From a virus, in IMG/VR virus record IMGVR_UViG_3300033143_001644, positions 1 through 21,933 of that record: a DNA stretch of 21,933 nucleotides; one strand, given 5' to 3'. Below the pieces are notes generated by a model that was given only the letters and a program-made list of their open reading frames with translations, made no database searches and was not told where the DNA came from. The position numbers were made by a program, and so were the translations under genes. Of the stretch, positions 5,083 to 17,907 are shown one piece after another. Position 1 is the first letter of the stretch. Every line of letters begins with the position of its first letter.

Positions 5083-5640
5083 TTGACGTTCGATGAAGCA
5101 TACTACCTTTCTGATCTGCAAAAGGTCGGGCATCCTCATTATGCAGCAAGAGCTCAGTGGGTAATAGATAATTATGCAGGGAAAAGAGTCATCGAGCTTG
5201 GTTGTGGTTTTGGTCAAGTCATTAAGTCACTGAGAGATGTAGGGATAGTCGCTTGGGGTGTTGATGCAAGTCAATATGCCATTGATAATACCGACGCTCC
5301 CGGTTTTGTGTTTCATGTTACTGCAGGAGATTCTGACCTTAAGCGTCAGGACTTTTGTGTTTCATGGAACTTTCTTGATTGTCTTAATAATGAAGCTGAA
5401 GCCGAGCTTATTTGCGACAAGCTCAACGGATGTACAACAAACTTTCACGTTCTCTGTACGGACGATGGAAGCCCAGACGCAGCCAACTACATAGCTAATG
5501 GTTATTTCATTAAGCCAATGTCCTATTGGTTAAACTTGGTTGATAGCGATGTCATTCTGATAAACTACCATACAGGAGATGTATTCAATGGCGATGGTCC
5601 AATAAATATACCCCTGAATTGGGGAATGATAAGTAAGTAA
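5083..5640 (+). CDS. Class I SAM-dependent methyltransferase (TTG start)
   Basis: A 185-residue Rossmann-fold methyltransferase. Motif I is VIELGCGFGQV (residues 36-46), which binds S-adenosylmethionine. Motif II contains GVDASQYAID with an acidic residue for the ribose, and VSWNFLDCLNN is the likely motif IV region. The opening TFDEAYYLSD is typical of small methyltransferases acting on sugars or small molecules. The start is TTG: an in-frame stop lies 12 bases upstream, no ATG occurs before the core, and AGGGGAGA stands just ahead of the TTG. It shares one base with the giant fibre gene (TAATG). The substrate is unknown; a glycan or a virion protein is more likely than DNA, since no DNA-methylase DPPY/NPPY motif is seen. 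Confidence 0.82.
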   Translation: MTFDEAYYLSDLQKVGHPHYAARAQWVIDNYAGKRVIELGCGFGQVIKSLRDVGIVAWGVDASQYAIDNTDAPGFVFHVTAGDSDLKRQDFCVSWNFLDCLNNEAEAELICDKLNGCTTNFHVLCTDDGSPDAANYIANGYFIKPMSYWLNLVDSDVILINYHTGDVFNGDGPINIPLNWGMISK

Positions 5641-8600
5641 TGGCTTTAATACCGCAAGTAAATAGTCGAATAGCAAACGCAACGGAAACGTGGCAATGGG
5701 CCTGCGCTGTTGATGGCGATGGTTGGGCTCCGACTGATGAATTCATACTTGCGACTTATGCTACAGACAATACACCTCACTCCGGAACGGCGGGTATTAA
5801 CTTTAAGTTACAGTGGAGGCGAGCAGGAGGAACCTTTGCTGACGTAGGTGCTGATACAGAAATATGTTGGGGGACAGGAACAGGGCTTGTTGATGGTACG
5901 GAAGGTACAGGAAACCCTGCGGGCTGCTTGTCTCAGCAGTTTGTTGGAGAGAATGAAGGAGACAACTCGTACACCAATTCCCTAAAGGTTAGCTCAGGGA
6001 ACATTATTGAGATACAGTGGGCCTTGGGTTGTGGCTCTGGCGTTCAGTCAGAACAGGAATACGAGTTTCAACTCGTCGATGTAACAGGCAGTAACACAGC
6101 CGTTTGTAACGTATCCTTAACAACTGCAGTAGGGGCCACATATGAGTACGCAGACGGAATAGCCACGATCACGTTCGACTCAACTATTGCAGACCTTAAA
6201 GGTAGAGGCAGAATAGACGGAACCGGCACAATTACTTTCGGTGTAGAAACGGCTAATCTGGTTGGCCGGGGAATGATCGATGGTGTTGGTACAATAACCT
6301 TTGGCGTGGAGACAGCCAATCTGGTTGACTCGGCCTCAGGCCCGGTGACAGAATACATAAAAGGTACGGTCGGAATGCTCGTCGATGAGGATTTTGAGCG
6401 ATTTGATGAACTTGATATTATCACAGATGACGCTGATTGGGAGTTAGAGCTTGGGTCGCCTACCGTATTTATCTTAGCTGATAATAAAGTACTTGCCAGT
6501 AATGATTCAGGGGAAACCCACACATATAATACAAGTACAGGTCAGATAGGAAATTCATTTACCCAGATAGAAGTAAAGCAGGTAGGGGGTACGACTTGGG
6601 GAGGCTTGCAGATAAGAGTTGACGATAGTGGTGGGGATTTATCATGTTGGCAATTAGCTTTTGCCTCTAATGGAATGAGACTGTCTCACTGGTGGAATGG
6701 GGCTTGGAACTCAGGGCAATATCGGGCGGTTGGGTTTGAAGTAGGAGATATTTTAAGGCTTGAAGCTATAGGGCAAGAAATAAGTCTATTTGTTAATGGT
6801 AGTCTTTATACTTTATTTGACACCGAGCTGCCGGGAGGTAGAGCCATAAAGACTGAGGTGAAGGCAGTGGGTTATGGTGGAATAATTTGTGGATACGACA
6901 CAGTTACTCCGGCCAGTCGTACTTACATAGATAATTTTAAGTTTGGTGTTCCGTTCGGATTCTCTTGCTCTGGAACATTAAGTGCAAAAGGCCGCCTGAG
7001 AGCATATACGGTAGGAGAAGACATTCTTACTAACGGTGATTTCTCAAGTGCGACAGGATGGAGCATTAATAACCCAACAAATGCTTCTATCAGTGATGGT
7101 AAGGCTCATTTTCACTTGTCGACAGCGGAAGAATCGGTCTATATAATGCACCAAGTTAATGCAGGGATTGCTAATAATACACTGCATGAAATCAGATGTT
7201 TTGTCAATAGTATAGATGTTGGTTCATTAAAGGCACGCTGTAACGCAGGGAGCGGGTTTTATGCCCCTGATTTTAAGGTAGGATATAATTCAAATATCCA
7301 TATGTCGGGGGACTTAAACCAACGGCTTTACTTTTCTGGATATGGTTGGACTGAAGCAGAAGTTGAATGGGTCTCTGTTAAACTTGCTACACCTACTTGC
7401 CAATTAGCATTTTCTTGCTCGGGAACTTTAAAAGGTAAAGGGGTTCTAAGGTCAGGGGTATTAGGAGCAGAAAAGATTACAGATGGTGATTTCTCAAGTG
7501 ATTCCGAATTTCAATATGGGTCTGGTATTACATATAGCTCAGAGGCTATGCACTATGATGGTGTAACTAATTATGGATATATCATTCAAGAGCAAGGTGA
7601 TACAATTAGTGGAATCGAAGTAAATACTGATTACACCATTTCATTCGATGTATCAGGGAGTACTGGGGTAGGGTTGCGTTTTATAATAGAGTCAGATGAT
7701 AATGTATCATATGTAGCTACTGATAATTATGCAAATGGGCATCATTCCGTTGATTTTAGAAGTCCGTCAGATATTGGTACAGGAGGTCTAAAAATATTAT
7801 GCTATGATAGTGGTGAGGCGGGAACCATTGACAATCTTTCCATTAAACCACGTACAGTTGATTCTATTACATTCACCTGCTCGGGTACGCTCAAAGCAAA
7901 AGGTCGGTTACTTTCATTTACATTAGGCTCGGAGTTAATACCGAATTCTGAATGTGATGATACTGGTTATTGGCTTGAGAATACTGGATGGTCTATTGTT
8001 GATGGGAGGCTTTATAATGATGGGTCAGGTTCTTATTCTTCCTGCGAGCCTTCAAATCCAGAACCAGAGGCATCAATGACAGCAGGGTTTCTATATCGGT
8101 TGGGGGTAGACATTGAATATGTTTCGGGAAGTTTAGAAAATACAATACTTAATGAAGTATATCCACAAGCAACTGGAAGATTTGAGCGAGCAATAAAAAA
8201 CGATGGAAGTGGATATTTCTTTATCACTTGGGAGTATTGGAGTGGGTATCTCGATAATGTTAGTGTCAAAGAAGCCACTCCTAACTGTCAGTTAGCATTT
8301 ACCTGTTCAGGTACATTAAAAGGAATAGGTGTTCTGAACTCATGTACGCTTGGAGTGCAGAGAATGACGAATAATAGTTTTGACACGGATTCTGATTGGA
8401 CTAAAGATGCTAACTGGACGATTGTTGACGGAAATGCTGTTGCATCAACAGTAGTGAACACTGCTAGTATATATCAATTTGATGGTTGGGTTGAAGGGGA
8501 CCGATATAAGAGAGCAAGAGTAGAAATACGAGTTGTAGAACATACTGTTGGGAATCTTCGTGCTCGAGTAGGTAGTTCAGGTAATTTATTGTTTTTCACG

Positions 8601-11600
8601 GAAGCGACGGGAAGACACGTTGGGTCTAGGCTGTTAAGCAGTAATCCATCTTTCGGAACTGGCTTAATGGGAAGTGATGGTTACACAGGAAAAACAGGCT
8701 GGATTGCTGTTTGGGAACAAACGGTTAATTGCAACCTTGTATTTGCTTGCTCAGGTACGCTTAAGGGCAAGGGCTCAATGAAGTCCTATACTTTGAGTGC
8801 CGAAGTATTAACAGACCCCGGATTTGACAATGCTCCAAGTTGGTCTGTTGGCGCAGGGTGGACGTTAGCAGACAGTAAAGTAACTGGTGTAGCCGCCACA
8901 GGGGATGTTTCAAATAGCAGTCACGGAGAGTTGGAAGGCGAGGTACTTAGAATTGAAACTGTTTGTTCTGCTTTTACATCAGGGGTAGCAAGATGGTTGT
9001 TTTTTGGTGGAGATATAGGCACTCATATAGACGGACCTGCGGATATAGGCTCTACCATTGATATTATAAGGAATACTGACACCGGTAATGGGACATTCGG
9101 AATACAAGACGTAGGGGCGTTTACCGGAGCACTCGACAGTATATCTATTAAAAAATATGAGAACATTTCCACTATTACATTTGGTTCATCAGTAGCTAAT
9201 TTGGTAGATAGTGCGGCAGGAACATCATTGACCGATGGAGCAACTACGATCACATTTGGTAGTTCGACTGCCGTCTTGAAGGGGCGGACGTTAATGCACA
9301 ACCTGACATTGGATTCTGATATCGTTATAAATGGAAGTTTCGATACAGATACCGATTGGAATAAAGGAACTGGTTGGGCTATTGATGCAGATGAAGGCAA
9401 GGCGGTGGCGACTAATATTGCTCCTTATGCTGCAATATCACAAAACACTACAGGCTCACCCGCAGCGGGAGATCATTGGAGAAGTGTACTTCATGTATCA
9501 GAGATTGACCACCTATCCCAAGCAGCATATATAGACGTAGGGTTTTGTTCTCATTATCATGTAGCAGCGGAGATGTATCAACGTAATGGTATATACCCAT
9601 TTCATTTCCATATCATCTCTGTTCCAAATGATAATATTCTCATAAGGAATGGTGATAATTCAGATAATATATCATTTAAGGCACTATCCATAACTCTTCA
9701 AAAAGTAACGGATGTTAGCTGTAAGCTGACCTTTGCTTGCTCCGGTACATTAAAAGGAAAAGGAGAGATGCACTCGTTTACCCTTGGAGCAGAGGAAGTT
9801 ACGAACGGTGGGTTTGATGCTGATACAGATTGGAATACAGATGATGCAGGTTGGTCAATATCAGACGGTGAAGCTCACGCTGTAGCTACATCAGGATATA
9901 TTTATCAATCGGATATTCTCGTTGTAGGGGCGCTTTACAGGAGTGTTTTTAATGTAACCGAGTATACCTCAGGGAATGGTGTAAGGGTAGGGTTTGGTTC
10001 AACTGTTTTAGGTGCGTCCAGAGCAGTCGTTGGTAGGTTTGTTGATCATGGCTATTGTTCTGGAACGAATACATTGTACATGGACAATGACGGAACAAGT
10101 ACGTTGTCTATAGATAATGTTTCCTTGAAAGAAGCCACACCGAATTGTTCGTTTGGATTCTCTTGTTCAGGTACTCTAAAAGGGCGTGGAAGTCTACGAG
10201 CCAACGAGCTTGGACTTGAAATGCTTTCTGAAAGTGAGTTTGATACTGAAGTTAATTGGGGGCATGATTCTGAGTGGTCTATTGCAGCAGGGAAAGCTAC
10301 TTACGATTATACAGGCAATGGAAACCTGTATCAAACAGGCGGAATCATTACCGACTTTCTACCGAACCGATCATACAAGTTTGATTTTGAAGTAGCCATT
10401 GCATCAGGGAACGCTAACCTGAGAATGGCTAATGGTAATCAAGTCGTAGTATTTATTCCATACGCAAACTTCTCGGATGGTGTACATGAGGTGGATGTGA
10501 GGACGGGGGATAGTATAGGTATCGGAGGATTAAGCATTAGAGCTACAACGAATGGAACGAGTGGCTTTGACTTAGAATATGTTTCGATTAAGCCCTACCA
10601 AAGAATAGAATTTCATTGCTCTGGAACTCTTAAGGCAAAGGGGCGCCTTAACTCATATACCTTTGGTAGTGAGTTGATTACTACAGGGGATTTCTCAAGT
10701 GCAGGTGACTGGGAGGTTCAGGCGAATGCTCTTTGGTCGATAGCCGACGGGAAGGCGAGTTGCTCAGACGTATCGGCAGAAAATAGTTGGATAGGCAAGA
10801 CCTCAGGTGTAGCGATTGAGCCATACAAAAGATATAATTTCAGAACGAAAATAGGAGATGTAGGGAGTACTTCTGAAACAATGATTAATGTTGACCTTGC
10901 ATACTCAGGGTTTCACGCAGAAACAGTAATAGGAAACGCAGAAATAAACTGGACTTATCCAAGCGGTAGTGGTACTCAGGAGGCCATGATGATATACTCC
11001 ATTTATTACAATTGTGACGAGCCGTTTTCTATTGACGATGTTTCCCTGAGAGAGGCAGTCCCTAATTGCACTTTAGTATTCGCACCAACTGGAACTCTTA
11101 CAAATGTAGGTATATCGTTACAAGGTTCTTCATCATTAACATTCTCCGAGGCTGCGTCATTAAAGGGAATGGGGCAGTTGCGTTCTTATACCCTTAGTAC
11201 TGAGAAGATTGCAAACGGAGGGATGGACTCTACCTCAAGTTGGGAGATAACAGAAGGTTGGGAGATAACAGGAGGTGTAGCGGTATATGATGGCATATTG
11301 GATTATCAATCATTATATGAGGTTGATAGTAGGCTTGCTATTCCTTTAGATGCTGATAAGAGGCACGTTCTATTGTTTGATGTCATTCCAATTGATACCA
11401 ACTTCATGCGGATAAGGTTGCGTTCCGGTGATGGAGATTTTGATATATTACCTGCTATTTATTATTATCAGAAAAGGTATCGAATTAACTTCCCCGTTCC
11501 CCTTCTTAAAGAAGACGGAGGTATTCGATTCTATATGTATAATGACGGTGGGGTGGGGCATTTGGATAATGTTTCTCTGAAATCAATTATTCCAACCTGT

Positions 11601-12899
11601 CAGCTTGCATTTACTCCCGCAGGAACTCTTACAGATGTAAGTATAGGCGAAGGCCCAATTGACGGAGCAACCACAATCACTTTCAGTGAAACGGCATCGT
11701 TAAAAGGCCGGGGCTCAATGTCGGGAGTTTCGACGATAACATTTAGCGAAGGGGCTGTCTTAAAAGCTAAAGGGATACTACAAGGTACAACAAGCCTCAC
11801 GTTTAATGAAAATGCAGTATGGACGGCTACCTCTCATATAACAGGAGCGAGCACTCTTGAGTTTACCGTCGCAGGAGACCTCTCGGGCGGAGCGGCTGTA
11901 TATGGCTCTGCGGGGATTACATTCACTACGGCTGCTATATGGACCGCTTATGCTCATATAACAGGAGTAGCCAGTATAACCTTTACCGTTGCTGCCGATA
12001 TCTCTGGCACGGATTACACCGACGGCACGACGTCAATTACTTTTGGCTCAAGTGCCCATATTACAGGTAGAGCTCAGACCACAGCATCCTCAAGTATAAC
12101 TTTCAGCTCTGCCGCTAATCTTATTGGCAAAGGCATACTGACCGGAACGTCTGGAATTACATTCTCTCTGACTGCGGCACTCAAGGGTCGGGCAATGGCT
12201 ACCGGAAGCACCAGTATAACATTTGTCGGTATCGCTGCGGTAACAGGTACGAACTATATAAACGGAACTACTGACCTTACATTCTCAGAGGTCGCAAGTC
12301 TTAAGGGTAGAACAAGCCTAGAAGGAGTTTCCGCCCTTACTTTCTCGGTAGCAGGTAAGGTCGCCTTTACCGGGGAGATGACAGGGGTTGCTAGTATTAC
12401 CTTTACCGGTGCGGGTGAATTAAAGGGAAGAAGCGCTCTCGTAGGTATCTCTGCTATTGATTTTGCGATGGTTGCCGTCCTTAAGGGGCACGGGTTTATG
12501 ATAAGTGTAATCTTACTCTCATTCTCCACCGGGGCTAATCTTAAGGGTCGGGGCGTTATGGGCGGGGTGACAGACATTACATTTGCGGTCACAGGCACGG
12601 GAGGATTTGATGCCGATATAACCGGGGTGGCTACAATAGTATTCGCTTTATCCGGAACAATCAAAGGGCGCACTGCCTTACAGGGCTCTACTCAATTATT
12701 ACTCCAACCTGCTGCTCATATAATTGGTCATATAGGTATTCAGGGGTCGACTTCCATAGAATTCACTACGTTCATGATCTTCTCTGTAGGATTTGGTATA
12801 CTAAAGTATTGGACTGGCGTGGCTTGGACTAGAAGAAGTATCATAGAGCCCACTTATTTATGGTACAATGGAGAGTGGCAATTACTCGATACAAGGTAA
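5640..12899 (+). CDS. Giant modular fibre protein with lectin and carbohydrate-binding-like modules (2419 aa)
   Basis: This is the largest gene of the window. Residues 1-170 form a beta-rich domain with five cysteines. From residue 173 the chain is a 20-21-residue beta repeat of the form G-x-x-x-I-T-F-x5-L-K-G-x-G-x-L. A concanavalin-like domain (about 243-437) and ten jelly-roll modules (about 460-1985) are inserted between successive repeats. Residues 2009-2388 are 19 uninterrupted repeats of exactly 20 residues. The tail reads KYWTGVAWT...YLWYNGEWQL, the paired W-x-G-x-W ending of many phage tail proteins. No enzymatic motif or S74 chaperone is seen. Receptor binding or surface decoration is inferred. 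No tape measure lies in the window, so head fibre and tail fibre remain open. Start ATG shares one base with the upstream TAA. Confidence 0.85.
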   Translation: MALIPQVNSRIANATETWQWACAVDGDGWAPTDEFILATYATDNTPHSGTAGINFKLQWRRAGGTFADVGADTEICWGTGTGLVDGTEGTGNPAGCLSQQFVGENEGDNSYTNSLKVSSGNIIEIQWALGCGSGVQSEQEYEFQLVDVTGSNTAVCNVSLTTAVGATYEYADGIATITFDSTIADLKGRGRIDGTGTITFGVETANLVGRGMIDGVGTITFGVETANLVDSASGPVTEYIKGTVGMLVDEDFERFDELDIITDDADWELELGSPTVFILADNKVLASNDSGETHTYNTSTGQIGNSFTQIEVKQVGGTTWGGLQIRVDDSGGDLSCWQLAFASNGMRLSHWWNGAWNSGQYRAVGFEVGDILRLEAIGQEISLFVNGSLYTLFDTELPGGRAIKTEVKAVGYGGIICGYDTVTPASRTYIDNFKFGVPFGFSCSGTLSAKGRLRAYTVGEDILTNGDFSSATGWSINNPTNASISDGKAHFHLSTAEESVYIMHQVNAGIANNTLHEIRCFVNSIDVGSLKARCNAGSGFYAPDFKVGYNSNIHMSGDLNQRLYFSGYGWTEAEVEWVSVKLATPTCQLAFSCSGTLKGKGVLRSGVLGAEKITDGDFSSDSEFQYGSGITYSSEAMHYDGVTNYGYIIQEQGDTISGIEVNTDYTISFDVSGSTGVGLRFIIESDDNVSYVATDNYANGHHSVDFRSPSDIGTGGLKILCYDSGEAGTIDNLSIKPRTVDSITFTCSGTLKAKGRLLSFTLGSELIPNSECDDTGYWLENTGWSIVDGRLYNDGSGSYSSCEPSNPEPEASMTAGFLYRLGVDIEYVSGSLENTILNEVYPQATGRFERAIKNDGSGYFFITWEYWSGYLDNVSVKEATPNCQLAFTCSGTLKGIGVLNSCTLGVQRMTNNSFDTDSDWTKDANWTIVDGNAVASTVVNTASIYQFDGWVEGDRYKRARVEIRVVEHTVGNLRARVGSSGNLLFFTEATGRHVGSRLLSSNPSFGTGLMGSDGYTGKTGWIAVWEQTVNCNLVFACSGTLKGKGSMKSYTLSAEVLTDPGFDNAPSWSVGAGWTLADSKVTGVAATGDVSNSSHGELEGEVLRIETVCSAFTSGVARWLFFGGDIGTHIDGPADIGSTIDIIRNTDTGNGTFGIQDVGAFTGALDSISIKKYENISTITFGSSVANLVDSAAGTSLTDGATTITFGSSTAVLKGRTLMHNLTLDSDIVINGSFDTDTDWNKGTGWAIDADEGKAVATNIAPYAAISQNTTGSPAAGDHWRSVLHVSEIDHLSQAAYIDVGFCSHYHVAAEMYQRNGIYPFHFHIISVPNDNILIRNGDNSDNISFKALSITLQKVTDVSCKLTFACSGTLKGKGEMHSFTLGAEEVTNGGFDADTDWNTDDAGWSISDGEAHAVATSGYIYQSDILVVGALYRSVFNVTEYTSGNGVRVGFGSTVLGASRAVVGRFVDHGYCSGTNTLYMDNDGTSTLSIDNVSLKEATPNCSFGFSCSGTLKGRGSLRANELGLEMLSESEFDTEVNWGHDSEWSIAAGKATYDYTGNGNLYQTGGIITDFLPNRSYKFDFEVAIASGNANLRMANGNQVVVFIPYANFSDGVHEVDVRTGDSIGIGGLSIRATTNGTSGFDLEYVSIKPYQRIEFHCSGTLKAKGRLNSYTFGSELITTGDFSSAGDWEVQANALWSIADGKASCSDVSAENSWIGKTSGVAIEPYKRYNFRTKIGDVGSTSETMINVDLAYSGFHAETVIGNAEINWTYPSGSGTQEAMMIYSIYYNCDEPFSIDDVSLREAVPNCTLVFAPTGTLTNVGISLQGSSSLTFSEAASLKGMGQLRSYTLSTEKIANGGMDSTSSWEITEGWEITGGVAVYDGILDYQSLYEVDSRLAIPLDADKRHVLLFDVIPIDTNFMRIRLRSGDGDFDILPAIYYYQKRYRINFPVPLLKEDGGIRFYMYNDGGVGHLDNVSLKSIIPTCQLAFTPAGTLTDVSIGEGPIDGATTITFSETASLKGRGSMSGVSTITFSEGAVLKAKGILQGTTSLTFNENAVWTATSHITGASTLEFTVAGDLSGGAAVYGSAGITFTTAAIWTAYAHITGVASITFTVAADISGTDYTDGTTSITFGSSAHITGRAQTTASSSITFSSAANLIGKGILTGTSGITFSLTAALKGRAMATGSTSITFVGIAAVTGTNYINGTTDLTFSEVASLKGRTSLEGVSALTFSVAGKVAFTGEMTGVASITFTGAGELKGRSALVGISAIDFAMVAVLKGHGFMISVILLSFSTGANLKGRGVMGGVTDITFAVTGTGGFDADITGVATIVFALSGTIKGRTALQGSTQLLLQPAAHIIGHIGIQGSTSIEFTTFMIFSVGFGILKYWTGVAWTRRSIIEPTYLWYNGEWQLLDTR
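6156..6341 (+). repeat. Three 63-base units of the beta repeat, N-terminal set
   Basis: Units start at 6156, 6219 and 6282 and each encodes 21 residues (the third is cut short by the lectin-like domain). The protein core is I-T-F-x5-A-x-L. Units two and three share the 13 residues GTITFGVETANLV without change, but 9 of the 13 codons differ synonymously. The copies are one residue longer than the C-terminal set, with the extra residue between the phenylalanine and the leucine. Confidence 0.85.
6363..6950 (+). other. Concanavalin/LamG-like domain within the giant fibre protein
   Basis: About 196 residues between two beta repeats. It begins LVDEDFERFDEL, includes ADNKVLASND, a strand block around WGGLQIRVDD, then GDILRLEAIGQEISLFVNG, and ends with the lectin-like closing strand YIDNFKFG. 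The 'receive a value through xVxGxxIxxFVNG ... IDNFxxG' layout is that of concanavalin-like sandwich domains in glycan-binding and sugar-hydrolase accessory modules. It differs from the ten following modules and is the only one of its kind here. Ligand unknown. Confidence 0.6.
7020..11600 (+). repeat. Ten inserted jelly-roll modules, CBM4/9-like
   Basis: Modules start near 7020, 7476, 7938, 8364, 8808, 9324, 9798, 10224, 10677 and 11208, each about 120-140 residues. They open with NGxFdtdtdWxxgxgWxIxdGkA and close with a strand like IDNVSLKEATPNC, the pattern of the galactose-binding-like CBM4/9 fold that phages often use in fibres. Between modules there is always one or two copies of the beta repeat (CSGTLKGKGxLxSYTLG), so module plus linker has a period of about 425-460 bases. 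The copies differ widely in protein sequence, so the duplications are old. Glycan binding is inferred from the fold only. Confidence 0.75.
11664..12803 (+). repeat. Nineteen tandem 60-base units (20 residues each) without indels
   Basis: The stretch splits exactly into 19 blocks of 20 residues. Almost all start with G (two start A or S) and carry I-T-F or a close variant at positions 5-7 and often L-K-G-R-G from position 13. I counted each block by eye and found no insertion or deletion. Blocks 3-4 and 5-6 are especially alike (tcatataacaggag at 11834 and 11954, 120 bases apart), so a two-unit step was duplicated. A constant 20-residue step with alternating strand residues suggests a beta-solenoid or stacked-hairpin shaft (inference). 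Confidence 0.9.
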
Positions 12900-12917: not shown

Positions 12918-12947
12918 CTGCCGTTCGGAATAAAGTTTTTATATTTG
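12918..12947 (+). promoter_or_regulatory. Possible internal promoter before the sugar cassette
   Basis: TATATTTG at 12940-12947 matches TAnnTTTG exactly and lies 16 bases before the ATG at 12963. The matching upstream element is weak: CTG at 12918-12920 at a 19-base spacing. The gap 12900-12962 also holds a short CCG-TT-CGG inverted repeat followed by GTTTTT (12921-12940), perhaps a weak or decayed terminator. A separate promoter would let the cassette be made apart from the fibre gene; this is inference. Confidence 0.35.
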
Positions 12948-12962
12948 AGTAAAAGTAAAAAC

Positions 12963-13946
12963 ATGAAGATATTAGCACTTGTTTACAACACAACGGATAG
13001 TTGTAGCTTTTACCGTGCAGGGGGAATTTTCCCTGATCTACAACGCAAGATGGATGCAGATATTGATCTTGTAGCATGGAATGAAATAGTCCTTCAGTGG
13101 CAGAAAATAATTCAATACGATATTATTTTTATGCAGCGCCCTTTCTCGGATGAAGCACTTAGCTTCTGTTCATTCATGAAGAATTTTAACATACCTATGT
13201 GGATGGATTACGACGACAACCTGTTTGCCGTGCCCGCAGAGAACAAGCTCGCCAGAATGTATGGCCCGGAAACCAGAGAGCGACTTAAGAAGATCGCAGC
13301 ACTGGCCGACGTCATCACAGTGGCCACTCCGGAGCTTAAGGTTCTGTTTGATGAGCATAATAGCAATGTAGTGATCGTCCCGAACGCATTCAATGACTTT
13401 ATCTTTAAGGAACGCCCGTTACGCCATGCAGATCAAAAGATGGTTACATGGAGGGGTTCTGATTCTCACATTTATGATGTTATGTCGGTCGGCGATCAGC
13501 TCAACCAACTAACTGAAGAGTACGAAGATTGGCAATTCTTGTTTATGGGATTTCACCCGTGGTACCTTAATGAAGGGACGAACGTATTCGCCCTCCCGGC
13601 AATGGACGTCATGCTCTACTTTAAGAACATGGCTCAAATGCAGGCCCCGGTCCTTATCACTCCACTGCATGACAGTGATTTTAATCGATGCAAGTCTAAC
13701 ATTGCATACATTGAGGCATCCTATTTTGGCTCAGTATGTGTATGCCCTGACTTTCCAGAGTGGCAGAAACCCGGAGCTATCAACTATGAAAACCAGAAAC
13801 ATTTCTATTCAGCGGTTAAGGGAGTTATTAACAATGAGGTCGACGTTGTTGTTGAAAACCGTAAAGCATGGGAATACGTCACAGATGAGCTAATGCTGAG
13901 TAAGATAAACATAAAACGCATGGAAGTTATTAACAACTTATTATGA
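12963..13946 (+). CDS. GT-B glycosyltransferase (GT4-like)
   Basis: With the ATG start this is 327 residues. The first strand is MKILALVYN and the N-terminal half contains MWMDYDDNLF (79-88). The hinge region has VIVPNAFND (137-145), then WRGSDSHIYDV (163-173), and the C-terminal nucleotide-sugar site has NRCKSNIAYIEASYFG (241-256), equivalent to the usual K...E. This is the layout of GT4/GT1-type transferases; donor and acceptor cannot be told. A TTG at 12945 would add six residues but overlaps the -7-like box, so I prefer the ATG. It overlaps the next gene by ATGA and is the first gene of the coupled cassette. Confidence 0.82.
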   Translation: MKILALVYNTTDSCSFYRAGGIFPDLQRKMDADIDLVAWNEIVLQWQKIIQYDIIFMQRPFSDEALSFCSFMKNFNIPMWMDYDDNLFAVPAENKLARMYGPETRERLKKIAALADVITVATPELKVLFDEHNSNVVIVPNAFNDFIFKERPLRHADQKMVTWRGSDSHIYDVMSVGDQLNQLTEEYEDWQFLFMGFHPWYLNEGTNVFALPAMDVMLYFKNMAQMQAPVLITPLHDSDFNRCKSNIAYIEASYFGSVCVCPDFPEWQKPGAINYENQKHFYSAVKGVINNEVDVVVENRKAWEYVTDELMLSKINIKRMEVINNLL

Positions 13947-14518
13947 CAAATTCGACACTAGTTCAGTTATTTGAGACACACGGAAGACGGAGATACTACA
14001 CCGACAAGGGTGACGGACACTCGTATCTTCCGGTTTACGATAAGCTGTTTGCACCCTATAAAGACAAGGCGATCAACCTGTTTGAGGTAGGACACTCCGC
14101 CGGTGGTGCGCTTCGTTTATTCGATGATTACTTCAGGCACCCAGACACCCGGATAATTGGGATAGACCAGTCAGATAACGACTGGATTACTATGTACGAT
14201 CGGAAGCCTTATGATACAGAGAGGGTCGAGACCTTTCTTCAGGATGCCAATCTCTTAGATCGAGAATGGTTTAATCGCCGGAACTTCTGGCCCGACATCG
14301 TGATAGAAGATTCTAATCACCAGTTGGATACTCAGCTATACATTGTAAAAACCCTTCTGCCGATAATGAGGCCCGGAGGCCTTCTTATTATAGAGGACGT
14401 ACTTGACCCGGTTGAGCGAGTTAAGGAGTTCGAGAAATTAGGAATAGAGTTTGAATTATTCGACCTTAATCACATTAAATATACTGCAGATAACGCACTA
14501 ATAGTCTACAGGACATGA
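13943..14518 (+). CDS. Sugar O-methyltransferase-like enzyme (CmcI/TylF type)
   Basis: A 191-residue class I methyltransferase. It opens with YYTDKGDGHSYLPVYDKLF (residues 18-36), the TDK...HxY...Y lead-in common to sugar and macrolide O-methyltransferase relatives. Motif I is NLFEVGHSAGGAL (45-57), motif II IIGIDQS (71-77), and the metal/catalytic region IVIEDSNHQLDTQ (119-131) is followed by RPGGLLIIEDV (143-153). IEDxxH...GGxxIIED is characteristic of the cephalosporin hydroxylase/macrocin O-methyltransferase group. It sits between two glycosyltransferases with ATGA overlaps on both sides, so methylation of a transferred sugar is the natural reading (inference). Confidence 0.82.
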   Translation: MTNSTLVQLFETHGRRRYYTDKGDGHSYLPVYDKLFAPYKDKAINLFEVGHSAGGALRLFDDYFRHPDTRIIGIDQSDNDWITMYDRKPYDTERVETFLQDANLLDREWFNRRNFWPDIVIEDSNHQLDTQLYIVKTLLPIMRPGGLLIIEDVLDPVERVKEFEKLGIEFELFDLNHIKYTADNALIVYRT

Positions 14519-15573
14519 TAGACAGAAGAGAAACCAAGTTAATTCGCCCGTGGTGGGAGTATGACGACCTTCATAAGCAGATGTGGAAAGATGAAGATAT
14601 AACTGTCATTATCTGCGAGCGAGACACTCTGGATATAACTCGGCTCACCTTGGAGTCACTCTTGCGATTCTACCCTGATATACCTATCCTATTTGTGGAC
14701 GGTGGCTCTGAAGATGGGTCTCTTGAGTATCTTAAGTACATGGGCAGGAAGCATTCCAATATAGAAGTGTGGCATCGTGGTGGACGTAATGGTCACGGAA
14801 CTATGCTCGATGATGGGATTAGGCAGTTTATAACAACCAAGTATATATTGTTAATGGACTCAGATGTCATTGTGCGAAGAGGCGGTTGGATTGAAGATAT
14901 GCTTGAGCAAATGGAATCAAGGGATATTTATGCCATAGGTACAATTATGCTTGTCACTAACTCGAATGATGGATGCGGGGAGCCCAAGGATGATAATGAC
15001 ATTCTTAGGTACGCTCACCCGTCCTGCTCCATGATTAGAAGGTCTACCTATTTGACCTTACCTCCATTTATAGAGCACGGGGCGCCACTGGTTCATAATA
15101 TGCAGGAGGCTCAGAAACTTGGATTAAAGGTTGAATATTACCCGATCGAGTACTACTGCGCACATATGTCCGGGGCAAGCTACAATGACCCTAGAACGAT
15201 ATGGCGGACCGATATGGGAGTCCATATGAGGCCGCTAGTGACATTTATCATACCTCGTGATGTTGGACTGTATCTGGGAGATCAGATCGATAAAGACTTT
15301 GATATAGTTTACGCCGGGCCTATTCATAAGGAAAAAGTTGTTATTCATGATGTTGGACATTTTAATGTAGGTAACGATGTATTCCAGTTAAGGCACCGGG
15401 TTACTGGCGACTATGTTTGCAAATTAGAGACGGACTGCGCTTTACCGGAAGACTTTATAAAGAATGTTCGATTGGATTTAACGAAAACGTATTGCCCTGA
15501 TGTTCTTAATGTAGACGGGGGAATAAAAATAGTAAAACGAGAAATATGGCAGCAGACAGACTCCCTATCATAG
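14515..15573 (+). CDS. GT2 glycosyltransferase with a second GT-A-like half
   Basis: A 352-residue protein. The first 235 residues are a GT-A family 2 domain: ITVIICERDTLDITRLTLESL (29-49), ILFVDGGSEDGSLEYL (58-73) and the metal-binding LLMDSDVIV (112-120), followed by a basic acceptor region. From residue 240 a second, shorter block begins with PLVTFIIP and contains VGNDVFQLRHRVTGDYVCKLETDCALPEDFI, where ETD (305-307) stands in a DxD-like place. This looks like half of another GT-A domain, truncated or degenerate. The start overlaps the methyltransferase gene by ATGA, and the end overlaps the next gene by 28 bases. Sugar specificity unknown. Confidence 0.85.
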   Translation: MIDRRETKLIRPWWEYDDLHKQMWKDEDITVIICERDTLDITRLTLESLLRFYPDIPILFVDGGSEDGSLEYLKYMGRKHSNIEVWHRGGRNGHGTMLDDGIRQFITTKYILLMDSDVIVRRGGWIEDMLEQMESRDIYAIGTIMLVTNSNDGCGEPKDDNDILRYAHPSCSMIRRSTYLTLPPFIEHGAPLVHNMQEAQKLGLKVEYYPIEYYCAHMSGASYNDPRTIWRTDMGVHMRPLVTFIIPRDVGLYLGDQIDKDFDIVYAGPIHKEKVVIHDVGHFNVGNDVFQLRHRVTGDYVCKLETDCALPEDFIKNVRLDLTKTYCPDVLNVDGGIKIVKREIWQQTDSLS

Positions 15574-16229
15574 GGTTTATGCACATTTGTATGATTAATG
15601 AGTATCTTGAGATCGTGGGAGAGCAAATAAACCTTATGGTGACGTCTGGGCTCTATGATGAGGTAAAAAGAGTAGATATCGGATGTGTGGGGCCAGAAGA
15701 GAACTTGGAGCTCTTAAAACGAGCCTATAAGCCTTTTGACAAGTTGCATTTTCAGATACATAGCAAGGATATCGAGAAGTATGAGTTTTTGACATTGGGT
15801 ATGCTGCAGCAAAGATCGATTATTTCCGCTCAGTTCCACGGGTTCTATATTCATACTAAAGGTGTAAGTTGGCCGGGGCATGAAGGAGGAAAGCATTGGA
15901 GAGATTATATGAATCACTATATACTCACTAAATGGCAGGATAATATCAGGATGTTAGAGTTCGGATATGATACCTGTGGTGTAAAACTTGTTAATAAAAG
16001 ATTCCCGCTCCACTATTCAGGAAACTTTTTCTGGTTCAGCTCAGAATACGTAAAGGTCCTTCCTAAGGTGCTTAAGTCCGATATGACTGACAGGTTTAAT
16101 GCTGAAATGTGGATAGGCTGCGGGCAACCTATTTGCGCTACACTATGTCAGCAATTTGTTGATTACGATACTCAAGGGAAGTTTATTCCTAAAGACAGTA
16201 AATGTATAACTCAAAAAATAGAATCATGA
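15546..16229 (+). CDS. HTKG/GNFFW-type putative glycosyltransferase
   Basis: A 227-residue protein of a family I know only by its motifs: FYIHTKGVSWP (100-110), HWRDYMNHYILTKW (117-130), YDTCGVKL (141-148), HYSGNFFWFSSEYVKVLP (156-173) and NAEMWIGCG (185-193). Proteins with this HTKG-WRxxM-DxxGV-HxxGNFWW-ExW chain occur among surface-polysaccharide genes and some large viruses, and are thought to be glycosyltransferases; I am not aware of a solved mechanism. The start at 15546 keeps the first strand PIIGFMHI whole but overlaps the GT2 gene by 28 bases. An ATG at 15579 would avoid overlap but cut that strand. It ends in ATGA with the next gene. Confidence 0.68.
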   Translation: MAADRLPIIGFMHICMINEYLEIVGEQINLMVTSGLYDEVKRVDIGCVGPEENLELLKRAYKPFDKLHFQIHSKDIEKYEFLTLGMLQQRSIISAQFHGFYIHTKGVSWPGHEGGKHWRDYMNHYILTKWQDNIRMLEFGYDTCGVKLVNKRFPLHYSGNFFWFSSEYVKVLPKVLKSDMTDRFNAEMWIGCGQPICATLCQQFVDYDTQGKFIPKDSKCITQKIES

Positions 16230-17017
16230 CAAATTATTGTTTCACACTAGCTTACAACCTTCCGTCAGAGGTAGAGAAGGCAACCGAGATGCTCTACAGG
16301 CTCAATTCAAACAGCAAGTTCCGTCATTTGATTGTTGACCTTGGATTTCCTTTGATAGTTGGCGACGAAATTCCTAAAGACCTCAAGAAGGCGAAAAAGC
16401 ATAACACAAAACTTCTTAAGGAGACTTGTGTAAGATATGGCTCAGAATATATTGAGATGGAAAATATTGGAGTCTCTCAGAACTGGACTCAGGTTTATAA
16501 GCACCTGAAGTTAGCTGACGATGACGTGTTGATTGGAGTTGACCCAGACGAGCACCCTAAAGGCTTTGGGTGGGTTAAGGCCATGGGCGACGCAATCCGG
16601 AACATGGACCTTGGGCTATGCTCTCTGATGATGGAGGACCACGTACCTCTTATGAGTGGGATTCCTTACAGTGAGCAAACCATTGAAGGTACAAGGCTGT
16701 ACTTTCTGCCTGCAGGCTCCTTGAACTGGGCTTTGATCGGTATAAGCGGTAAGTTTCTGAATAAGATTAAAAAGATACCATTTCCGGAGAAGGCGCCTAG
16801 ATACGGGTGGATTGAGGCCGAACTGTATCCATTATTTACAAAACACAAGATGACATGGGCTGTGCTTGCCGATTACATGGTGGAGCATACAGACTATGAG
16901 CACGGGCACCCCGGTACTTCTAAGCTCTTAAGGGAGTGGAAGAACCAAATCGTGTTTAAAGTCGAAGACGGCCAGATGTCTTTTGACGAATTCCTTAAGG
17001 CAAAGAAGAAGAAATGA
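16226..17017 (+). CDS. GT-A-like putative glycosyltransferase
   Basis: A 263-residue protein using the ATG at 16226, which overlaps the upstream TGA as ATGA like most junctions here. An ATG at 16202 would add eight residues and a 28-base overlap and is less likely. It opens MTNYCFTLAYNLPSEVEKATEML, a strand-helix pair. Then comes ENIGVSQNWTQVYKHLKLADDDVLIGVDPDEHPKG, where DPDE (106-109) falls after a hydrophobic strand exactly where GT-A enzymes have their metal-binding DxD. W193-I200 and the YMVEHTDYEHGHPG segment (217-230) may form the acceptor and His metal site. The C-terminus is a lysine-rich tail. Family assignment rests on the fold pattern, so I call it putative. Confidence 0.6.
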   Translation: MTNYCFTLAYNLPSEVEKATEMLYRLNSNSKFRHLIVDLGFPLIVGDEIPKDLKKAKKHNTKLLKETCVRYGSEYIEMENIGVSQNWTQVYKHLKLADDDVLIGVDPDEHPKGFGWVKAMGDAIRNMDLGLCSLMMEDHVPLMSGIPYSEQTIEGTRLYFLPAGSLNWALIGISGKFLNKIKKIPFPEKAPRYGWIEAELYPLFTKHKMTWAVLADYMVEHTDYEHGHPGTSKLLREWKNQIVFKVEDGQMSFDEFLKAKKKK

Positions 17018-17907
17018 TATTAGTAACTGGATGTGCGGGTTTTGTGGGCAGTAATATCGTTAAGAGATTGCTCTTGGAGGGGCACGATGTTATCGGGGTA
17101 GATGATCTTTCGTTTGGCGATGAGGCCAATGTTCCGAAAGAACTCACATGGTATAAGATGAAATTTGAGGACCTAACGGAATGCAAAATGAATAAATGCG
17201 ATATACTTATTCATGCCGCTACAGCAAATATCATCTACGCAATGGACAACCCGGTCGAGACTTTTAAAACCAACGCAGAAGGAACTCTAAAACTGTTTGA
17301 TAAATTCGCAGGAAAAATCATTTACTTAAGCACGGCATCCGTCTATGGCAACGCCTTGTTGTTACCAACCTCGGAAGACGCTGAAGCACAGACTACTAAC
17401 GCATACGATTTATCGAAGTATGTTGCGGAGATTGCTTTGAAGCTCAGAGGTGATTACACTACATTAAGGCTCTCTAACGTATACGGGGAACAACAAAGGG
17501 CGTCGAACCCTTATTGTGGGGTTATTGGGAAACTGGTTCATGCCGCAATGCGTGATATTGCGTTTACAATAACCGGGGGATGGGAGTCAACCAGAGATTA
17601 CACATACATACAAGACGTGGAGGACGCTGTACTTTTGGCTATTAAAACCAAGTCGTTCAATACTGAGTTTAATATCGCTACAGGGATAGAGACCTCTATC
17701 GAGGGATTGATAGTTGCGGTCCGAGAAATCACCGGGAAGAAAGTTTACTTTGGCAGCACAACACCAAGAAAGATTGACGGAATTACCCGGCGCTGCCTTG
17801 ATATAAAGAAGGCGAAACGGTTTCTAAAATGGAAGCCCACCACTAACTTACTGCAGGGATTGGCCTTTACAATAGACTGGTACAAACATGACAGACATAT
17901 CAAATAA
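17014..17907 (+). CDS. NAD-dependent sugar-nucleotide epimerase/dehydratase (extended SDR)
   Basis: This 297-residue enzyme has the complete extended-SDR set: the glycine-rich TGCAGFVGS (5-13), VIGVDDLSFG (26-35) with the acidic NAD-ribose residue, HAATANIIYAMDNP (67-80), STASVYG (106-112), the catalytic YDLSK (131-135), RLSNVYG (152-158), and RDYTYIQDV (194-202). Family members convert NDP-sugars, for example UDP-glucose to UDP-galactose or the matching GDP/TDP sugars; the exact substrate cannot be read here. It would supply a donor sugar for the transferases just upstream. Overlaps are ATGA with the previous gene and 20 bases with the MuF gene, placing the sugar cassette inside the head operon. 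Confidence 0.9.
   Translation: MILVTGCAGFVGSNIVKRLLLEGHDVIGVDDLSFGDEANVPKELTWYKMKFEDLTECKMNKCDILIHAATANIIYAMDNPVETFKTNAEGTLKLFDKFAGKIIYLSTASVYGNALLLPTSEDAEAQTTNAYDLSKYVAEIALKLRGDYTTLRLSNVYGEQQRASNPYCGVIGKLVHAAMRDIAFTITGGWESTRDYTYIQDVEDAVLLAIKTKSFNTEFNIATGIETSIEGLIVAVREITGKKVYFGSTTPRKIDGITRRCLDIKKAKRFLKWKPTTNLLQGLAFTIDWYKHDRHIK

Follow-up and report, generated by a model that had tools for sequence, protein, structure and literature searches.

The window analysed here is the whole of the 21,933-base virus record IMGVR_UViG_3300033143_001644, which is perhaps a fragment. It begins with a small-terminase-like gene and the large terminase, followed by the portal, a gene of 104 amino acids and a gp80-family gene. 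Next come a small methyltransferase, a giant fibre gene and a glycosyltransferase-like gene, and then further sugar/methyl-transfer genes, MuF, the scaffold, a putative decoration gene and the major capsid protein. The small methyltransferase, whose stop overlaps the start of the giant gene, is the one gene between the gp80-family gene and the giant, and all of these lie on the same strand (Table 1). A block of sugar- and methyl-transfer genes (12945-17907) sits amid the head module and separates the fibre gene from MuF. Its members are the glycosyltransferase-like gene (12945-13946), a Methyltransf_24-like gene, a GT2 gene, two unassigned genes and an NAD-dependent epimerase. The first of these is named by resemblance only (a Pfam search returned no family), and a scan of genome contigs with it gave no prophage and no host. 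In most relatives it directly follows the portal, even where the slot holds no fibre. The idea that it serves the shaft was rejected because it is retained in relatives whose slot lacks a fibre, and it is therefore independent of the fibre.

Table 1. Features of the giant fibre gene and of the two genes upstream of it (coordinates in the window; residues are those of the giant protein)
Feature	Coordinates	Strand	Evidence
gp80-family protein, 142 aa	4642..5070	+	Pfam PF23140 E=2e-20; profile match PDB 8jou chain a, E=6.7e-9
Small methyltransferase	5083..5640	+	Pfam Methyltransf_23 E=1.6e-6
Giant fibre gene, 2419 aa	5640..12899	+	single open frame, no internal stop
N-terminal domain, residues 1-165	5640..6134	+	Pfam, PHROG, phage records: no match
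Three N-terminal repeats, residues 177-238, 21-residue variant	6168..6353	+	PWM 13.6, 12.9 bits (first two); motif (third)
LamG-like domain, residues 239-438	6354..6953	+	resembles L068 fibre 1030-1185, E about 1e-4
Linker repeat 439-458	6954..7013	+	PWM
Module M1, residues 459-588	7014..7403	+	alignment of modules
Linker repeat 589-608	7404..7463	+	PWM
Module M2, residues 609-742, predicted CBM-like beta-sandwich	7464..7865	+	VIA Z 9-11.4
Linker repeat 743-762	7866..7925	+	PWM
Module M3, residues 763-884	7926..8291	+	alignment of modules
Linker repeat 885-904	8292..8351	+	PWM
Module M4, residues 905-1032	8352..8735	+	alignment of modules
Linker repeat 1033-1052	8736..8795	+	PWM
Module M5, residues 1053-1178	8796..9173	+	alignment of modules
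Double linker, repeats 1179 + 1204	9174..9308	+	motif; PWM 9 bits for 1204
Module M6, residues 1224-1362	9309..9725	+	alignment of modules
Linker repeat 1363-1382	9726..9785	+	PWM 21 bits
Module M7, residues 1383-1504	9786..10151	+	PHROG 30593, E=3.6e-11 at 1383-1446
Linker repeat 1505-1524	10152..10211	+	PWM
Module M8, residues 1525-1655	10212..10604	+	alignment of modules
Linker repeat 1656-1675	10605..10664	+	PWM
Module M9, residues 1676-1811	10665..11072	+	alignment of modules; low-confidence model
Double linker, repeats 1812 + 1833	11073..11195	+	PWM, 1833 = 25 bits, top of all
Module M10, residues 1853-1988, predicted CBM-like beta-sandwich	11196..11603	+	VIA Z 8-9
Linker repeat 1989-2012, runs into array	11604..11675	+	PWM 9.7 bits
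C-terminal array, 18 repeats of exactly 20 residues, 2013-2372	11676..12755	+	PWM; model 1 strands
C-terminal end, degenerate 19th repeat and YWTGVAW / LWYNGEW tail	12756..12896	+	sequence

Database searches place little of the giant protein. A Pfam search with the whole protein returned no family, its sole PHROG match is module M7, and phmmer against the PDB gave no match. The LamG-like fold name of residues ~239-438 comes from sequence resemblance only. Searches by tblastn with the giant, its N-terminal domain and M7 against 50,697 phage records found none, although low-complexity filtering possibly hides repeats in such a search. Direct IMG/VR scans with the giant, its modules or the repeat DNA motif gave either nothing or a chance match, as with L002, a QueE-like gene. 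A likeness by eye between the N-terminal domain and that of the fibre at locus L084 had no support from BLASTP, and the YWTGVAW / LWYNGEW tail (12756-12896) had no relative among the fetched loci.

What runs through the protein is a short repeat, with the consensus xxFTxSGTLKGKGxLxGxxx, in 34-35 copies (3 + 13 + 18-19). The N-terminal copies start at residues 177, 198 and 219, and the 13 linker copies at 439, 589, 743, 885, 1033, 1179, 1204, 1363, 1505, 1656, 1812, 1833 and 1989. The array copies then follow every 20 residues from 2013 to 2353 (18 clean), with a degenerate 19th at 2373. Linkers are one repeat each, or two at 1179/1204 and 1812/1833, and the N-terminal repeats and repeats 1179/1204 have one added residue between F and A. 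A PWM trained on the 18 C-terminal copies only was scored on residues 1-2012, with 300 shuffles as the control. It found 12 sites above 8 bits (10 linkers and 2 N-terminal repeats) against 0.15 per shuffle on average. The weak linkers 439 and 1812 reach about 4 bits with this array matrix versus 33 and 23 bits when scored with a matrix that was refined on the giant protein. The first-pass annotation had described the linkers as one or two copies of the C-terminal array repeat in the same phase, and the array-trained matrix bears this out. The spacing that it claimed, F-x-C-S-G-T-L-K-G against F-x-x-x-A-x-L-K-G, is confirmed, and its count of 3 + 13 + 19 over residues ~173-2388 is correct within one degenerate repeat.

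The repeat has a regular chemical pattern. In the giant fibre and seven relatives, positions 1, 3, 7, 9, 11, 13, 15 and 17 seldom or never carry a charge and are occupied by hydrophobic and small residues, while charge falls on even positions, mainly 10, 12 and 14. This alternation fits beta structure with the odd positions buried, and the giant's repeats combine such odd-position burial with a GTLKGxGxL core. Buried stacked charges mark false AF2 solenoids (PMC11795689); the charge pattern of the repeat does not imply that such charges are present here.

Relatives were reached only via the neighbouring genes, that is, the portal, the glycosyltransferase-like gene and gp80. The portal relatives mostly have the portal followed by the glycosyltransferase-like gene, with no intervening fibre. 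In the best 80 loci of at least 600 matching stretches from a gp80 scan of IMG/VR, 29 have a same-strand gene with five or more repeats of the 20-residue type, several of them within 100 bases. The repeat filter also passes 6 of 1122 shuffled proteins, and some entries with poor spacing are doubtful (e.g. L058_8086 and parts of L060, L061 and L057). The period is exactly 20 in most of these gp80-linked relatives. Most of the repeat genes in the best 80 loci are bare shafts, and some have LamG, CBM or other domains. Bare shafts adjoining gp80 are seen at L023, L084, L066 and L058. At L023, a portal relative, the order is portal, gp80, a 576-aa protein and the glycosyltransferase-like gene. The 576-aa protein consists of an N-domain and then at least 12 repeats of the same kind, without modules. 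Scored with the matrix from the giant's repeats, its shaft sums to 86 versus -38 (s.d. 14) in shuffles.

Decorated shafts occur at L060, at L059 (one LamG-like domain) and at L068 (IMGVR_UViG_3300006224_000025). The 1740-aa L068 fibre has two LamG-like domains, one CBM-like domain, one other domain and a long C-terminal array. As with the giant, gp80 lies upstream (47 bp), LamG-like and CBM-like domains occupy the slot between repeats and the C-terminal array is bare, but there are four mixed side domains rather than eleven. A cultured phage, Microbacterium phage Magritte (L057 6345-8810), encodes a protein, gp27, with a GDPD domain before a similar array of 20-residue GSGALSA repeats, and this is a possible enzyme-bearing member. 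Short repeat-like sequence is also seen N-terminal of the GDPD domain. The architecture of the giant is real and unusual: its repeat shaft is decorated, and the fibre belongs to a gp80-linked kind that is widespread. Comparison lends the decorated-shaft plan good support. The repeat shaft is bare in related phages and is here loaded with one LamG-like domain and ten modules predicted to be CBM-like.

All eleven of these domains interrupt the repeats at one boundary. Read directly from the sequences of the giant, L068 and L059, each domain begins once a repeat has closed with x-L-x-G/S, and stops just ahead of the first strand of the next. Domain kinds differ between phages, so the fixed phase is not just a relic of a single duplication. 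Among the ten units of the giant, protein identity is 52% for the linkers and ~23% for modules M1-M10 (about 122-138 residues each). Third-base differences at shared four-fold-degenerate residues are 72% and 69%, respectively. That is, the linkers are more alike in protein though their silent sites are equally saturated, and they are therefore under stronger selection than the modules. On this comparison the linkers are structure under constraint, not simple spacers. Repeat identity (first 17 positions, nine linkers) is 59% between linkers, 33% between array copies and 27% between linker and array. Because the linkers resemble each other far more than they resemble the array, most modules probably arose when a unit of repeat plus module was amplified long ago, its modules diverging afterwards, and not by ten separate insertions. 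The modules had first been read as insertions at repeat boundaries. The common boundary holds for all eleven domains, while the linker identities speak against ten separate events.

Two stretches of the giant were modelled. Model 1 (AlphaFold) covers residues 1656-2192 and is a monomer prediction whose alignment was seven rows of our own; model 2 covers residues 163-764. In model 2, M2 matches a porphyran-binding CBM at Z 11.4, CBM16, CBM22 and CBM29 near Z 10, and also CBM4 (VIA). In model 1, the VIA matches of M10 are CBM4-2, CBM27 and a xanthanase domain (Z 8-9). None of the ten modules matches a Pfam CBM above the gathering threshold, the best being CBM_4_9 (PF02018) at E=0.025 in one module. 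The predicted fold of M2 and M10 is like that of CBM families 4, 16, 22, 27 and 29, while membership by sequence stays below threshold. The earlier description of the modules as jelly rolls is sustained by prediction for M2 and M10, which come out as CBM-like beta-sandwiches. We take all ten modules as predicted CBM-like beta-sandwiches (M2 and M10 matched, the others poorly modelled), and on this footing they may bind glycans.

Taken together, it seems rather probable that the giant is a decorated repeat-shaft virion fibre, probably fixed at the neck via gp80, with modules that grip glycans. The upstream gp80-family protein would hold the giant at, or close to, the head-tail neck, and about 35 twenty-residue beta repeats would chain into a shaft. 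The LamG-like domain and the ten CBM-like modules would exit where one repeat ends and before the next one's first strand begins, with the final 18 repeats left bare. Such a fibre could offer numerous weak sites for glycans on a single axis, and its modules may keep the phage attached to polysaccharide of the host surface or matrix, either during adsorption or ahead of it. We infer the packing of the repeats into one shaft, the neck location, the sugar binding and the role in adsorption. The absence of a fibre from this slot in most of the closest portal relatives weighs against the reading.

Right-handed beta-helix proteins, such as autotransporter passengers, filamentous haemagglutinin and phage tailspikes, are a known case of a repeating beta coil with additional domains branching off it. 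Model 1 looks like the beta-helices of tailspikes and of GH87/GH110. Compared with those side-domain proteins, the giant fibre has a 20-residue coil with eleven domains at almost every coil of one half, and its gene sits in a phage head module near gp80. A type V secreted adhesin (autotransporter/FHA) was rejected as an identity for the giant: no secretion or translocator Pfam family was found, and the gene lies in the phage head module. The mean pLDDT of model 1 is 54.8 (array about 58-80, M10 about 52-61, linkers about 36-49, M9 lower) and its pTM is 0.43. The array forms three short strands per repeat. The top VIA-align matches are right-handed beta-helix proteins, with Z 19.2 and rmsd 2.9 over 264 residues spanning 1-537 of the model. 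Since the 537-residue stretch contains 266 repeat residues, and a match confined to 154-534 still aligns 244 (array and double linker), the linkers read as lying on the array helix. The natural reading of model 1, drawn from these counts and not from aligned pairs, is that all linkers and the array share one helix with the modules outside. Model 2 (mean pLDDT 49.7, pTM 0.43) has no beta-helix match spanning the linkers among the rows listed. AF2 is known to yield confident false solenoids for repeat sequences (PMC11795689). The predictions on a continuous shaft are suggestive, not decisive. For the one continuous shaft first proposed, the membership of linkers and array in one repeat family is supported; stacking appears in the low-confidence model 1 and not in model 2.

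The shaft may be built from more than one chain. Most phage fibres are trimers. This is also true of the neck-fibre subunits of Anabaena phage A-1(L) (PMC10966104). A shaft of three chains would have a larger rise per repeat and three modules per level, and the rung geometry of the first-pass annotation would then be wrong. A sphere-packing test in the real coil order bears on this point. Eleven modules can exit a helix of 4.8 A rise without overlap given about 10 A of slack each. The slack needed is about 18 A for three side-by-side 4.8 A helices and about 3 A for a trimeric shaft that rises 17 A per repeat, so that at a rise of at least 17 A the modules fit with little slack. Judged from the sequence, connectors of about 4-6 residues flank each module on both sides. 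The objection that crowding rules out a one-chain solenoid was not upheld, as about 10 A of slack suffices. Modelled in this way, steric crowding is compatible with one chain yet favours a larger rise. On the other hand, the 20-residue period does not fit the 15-residue repeat of the adenovirus-type triple beta-spiral. That fold was rejected, as the giant and the gp80-linked relatives have a period of 20. We regard a trimeric shaft as a serious candidate at somewhat under an even chance; it is a sub-case of the decorated shaft, and confidence in the two therefore overlaps.

Alternatively, the giant could be beads on a string, with single linkers that pack on the neighbouring module or tether it semi-rigidly, so that only the C-terminal array is a shaft. 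The lack of a shared helix through the linkers in model 2 and the crowding of modules at a 4.8 A rise would agree with this. A linker subfamily (59% alike, 27% to the array) is also expected if repeat-plus-module is one folding unit. Against it, model 1 sets linkers and array on one helix, the linkers match the array motif in phase, and the same kind of repeat makes long bare shafts in relatives. Moreover, linkers are one or two whole repeats and never fractions. We consider the arrangement unlikely, though it keeps some weight.

For the place of a decorated shaft, one-chain or trimeric, the best guess is the phage neck. The 142-aa protein encoded upstream of the giant is a clear homologue of fiber I, Gp80, of phage GP4 (PF23140, PDB 8jou), and is a candidate for the fibre's partner or anchor at the neck. 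In GP4, gp80 is a small protein; the decorated shaft here is a separate gene, associated with gp80 in gene order. Placement on the capsid or tail, with a purely genomic link to gp80, would suit a fibre gene lying in the head module between the portal and MuF. PHROG 240, which matches gp80, is annotated as a head protein, and the tail genes fall outside the 21.9-kb record. In some phages, however, relatives in the widespread gp80 family adjoin genes for the neck, for head-tail attachment and for tail tubular protein A, and the Pfam family, PF23140, takes its name from a podophage fibre protein. We judge a capsid or tail location doubtful, at about one chance in a handful or slightly more.

The neck fibre of A-1(L), gp82-gp81-gp80, is a described system to which a neck-fixed decorated shaft can be compared. 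It is a bead chain with a distal carbohydrate-binding module, and its beads are many copies of separate trimeric subunits (PMC10966104). In the giant, by contrast, all domains are on one 2419-residue chain and are held by repeats. The A-1(L) carbohydrate-binding module showed no host binding in the authors' assay (PMC10966104), so such modules are as likely to bind matrix or other polysaccharide as to bind a primary receptor.

Finally, a Ser/Thr/Gly-rich disordered or glycosylated stalk, modified by the adjacent sugar-transfer enzymes (the GT2 gene, methyltransferases, epimerase and glycosyltransferase-like gene after the fibre gene), is very improbable given the alternation of buried and charged positions across relatives and the retention of the glycosyltransferase-like gene where the slot has no fibre.

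The decorated shaft may also be one member of a larger group. Gp80-linked fibres of 20-residue repeats could form a widespread undescribed class of neck fibre with one docking phase, in which the giant is the most decorated found and has a continuous axis; we hold this only tentatively, just short of evenly balanced. Perhaps the domains spliced into such shafts are unrelated to each other (CBM-like, LamG-like and enzymes such as the GDPD of Magritte gp27). A limited literature search found no described phage fibre with a 20-residue repeat, and one may exist. Phage neck fibres are poorly known, and how phages gain new surface-binding domains is an open question. If the proposal is true, the rule is simple: the shaft is neutral and allows splicing at one point, and phages carry it either bare or loaded with different binding domains. 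This rule is testable because bare and decorated homologues adjoin the same partner gene. The repeat would also be a natural scaffold for the multivalent display of domains on one axis, and a function would be suggested for many unannotated repeat genes that adjoin gp80 in environmental phages.

Other genes at the related loci are of interest in their own right. In the same slot, L019 (3644-5863) has a LamG-like domain followed by a different repeat of ~20 residues (DAFHxLxSDxPVLTQKHxLVV). L018 (2367-3179), at the same locus, has a third kind of short repeat (S-I-S-E-x-x-S-L type) and ends in an Arg-rich tail similar to the one at L023. Nucleotidyltransferase-like, dehydratase-like and DegT-type aminotransferase-like genes, assigned by sequence, lie at L013 (6795-9917) and L023 (4546-9509), and such sugar-nucleotide genes suggest that this phage group has a pathway for virion or surface glycans. 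Within the L023 block there is also a GIY-YIG-type homing endonuclease-like gene (6038-6736, again by sequence). Many linkers of the giant (7398-11610) carry Cys ahead of and within the first strand (PNCQLAFTCSG). The two are not strictly paired inside one linker, and the repeats of L066 share the inner Cys (ITCSGTL).
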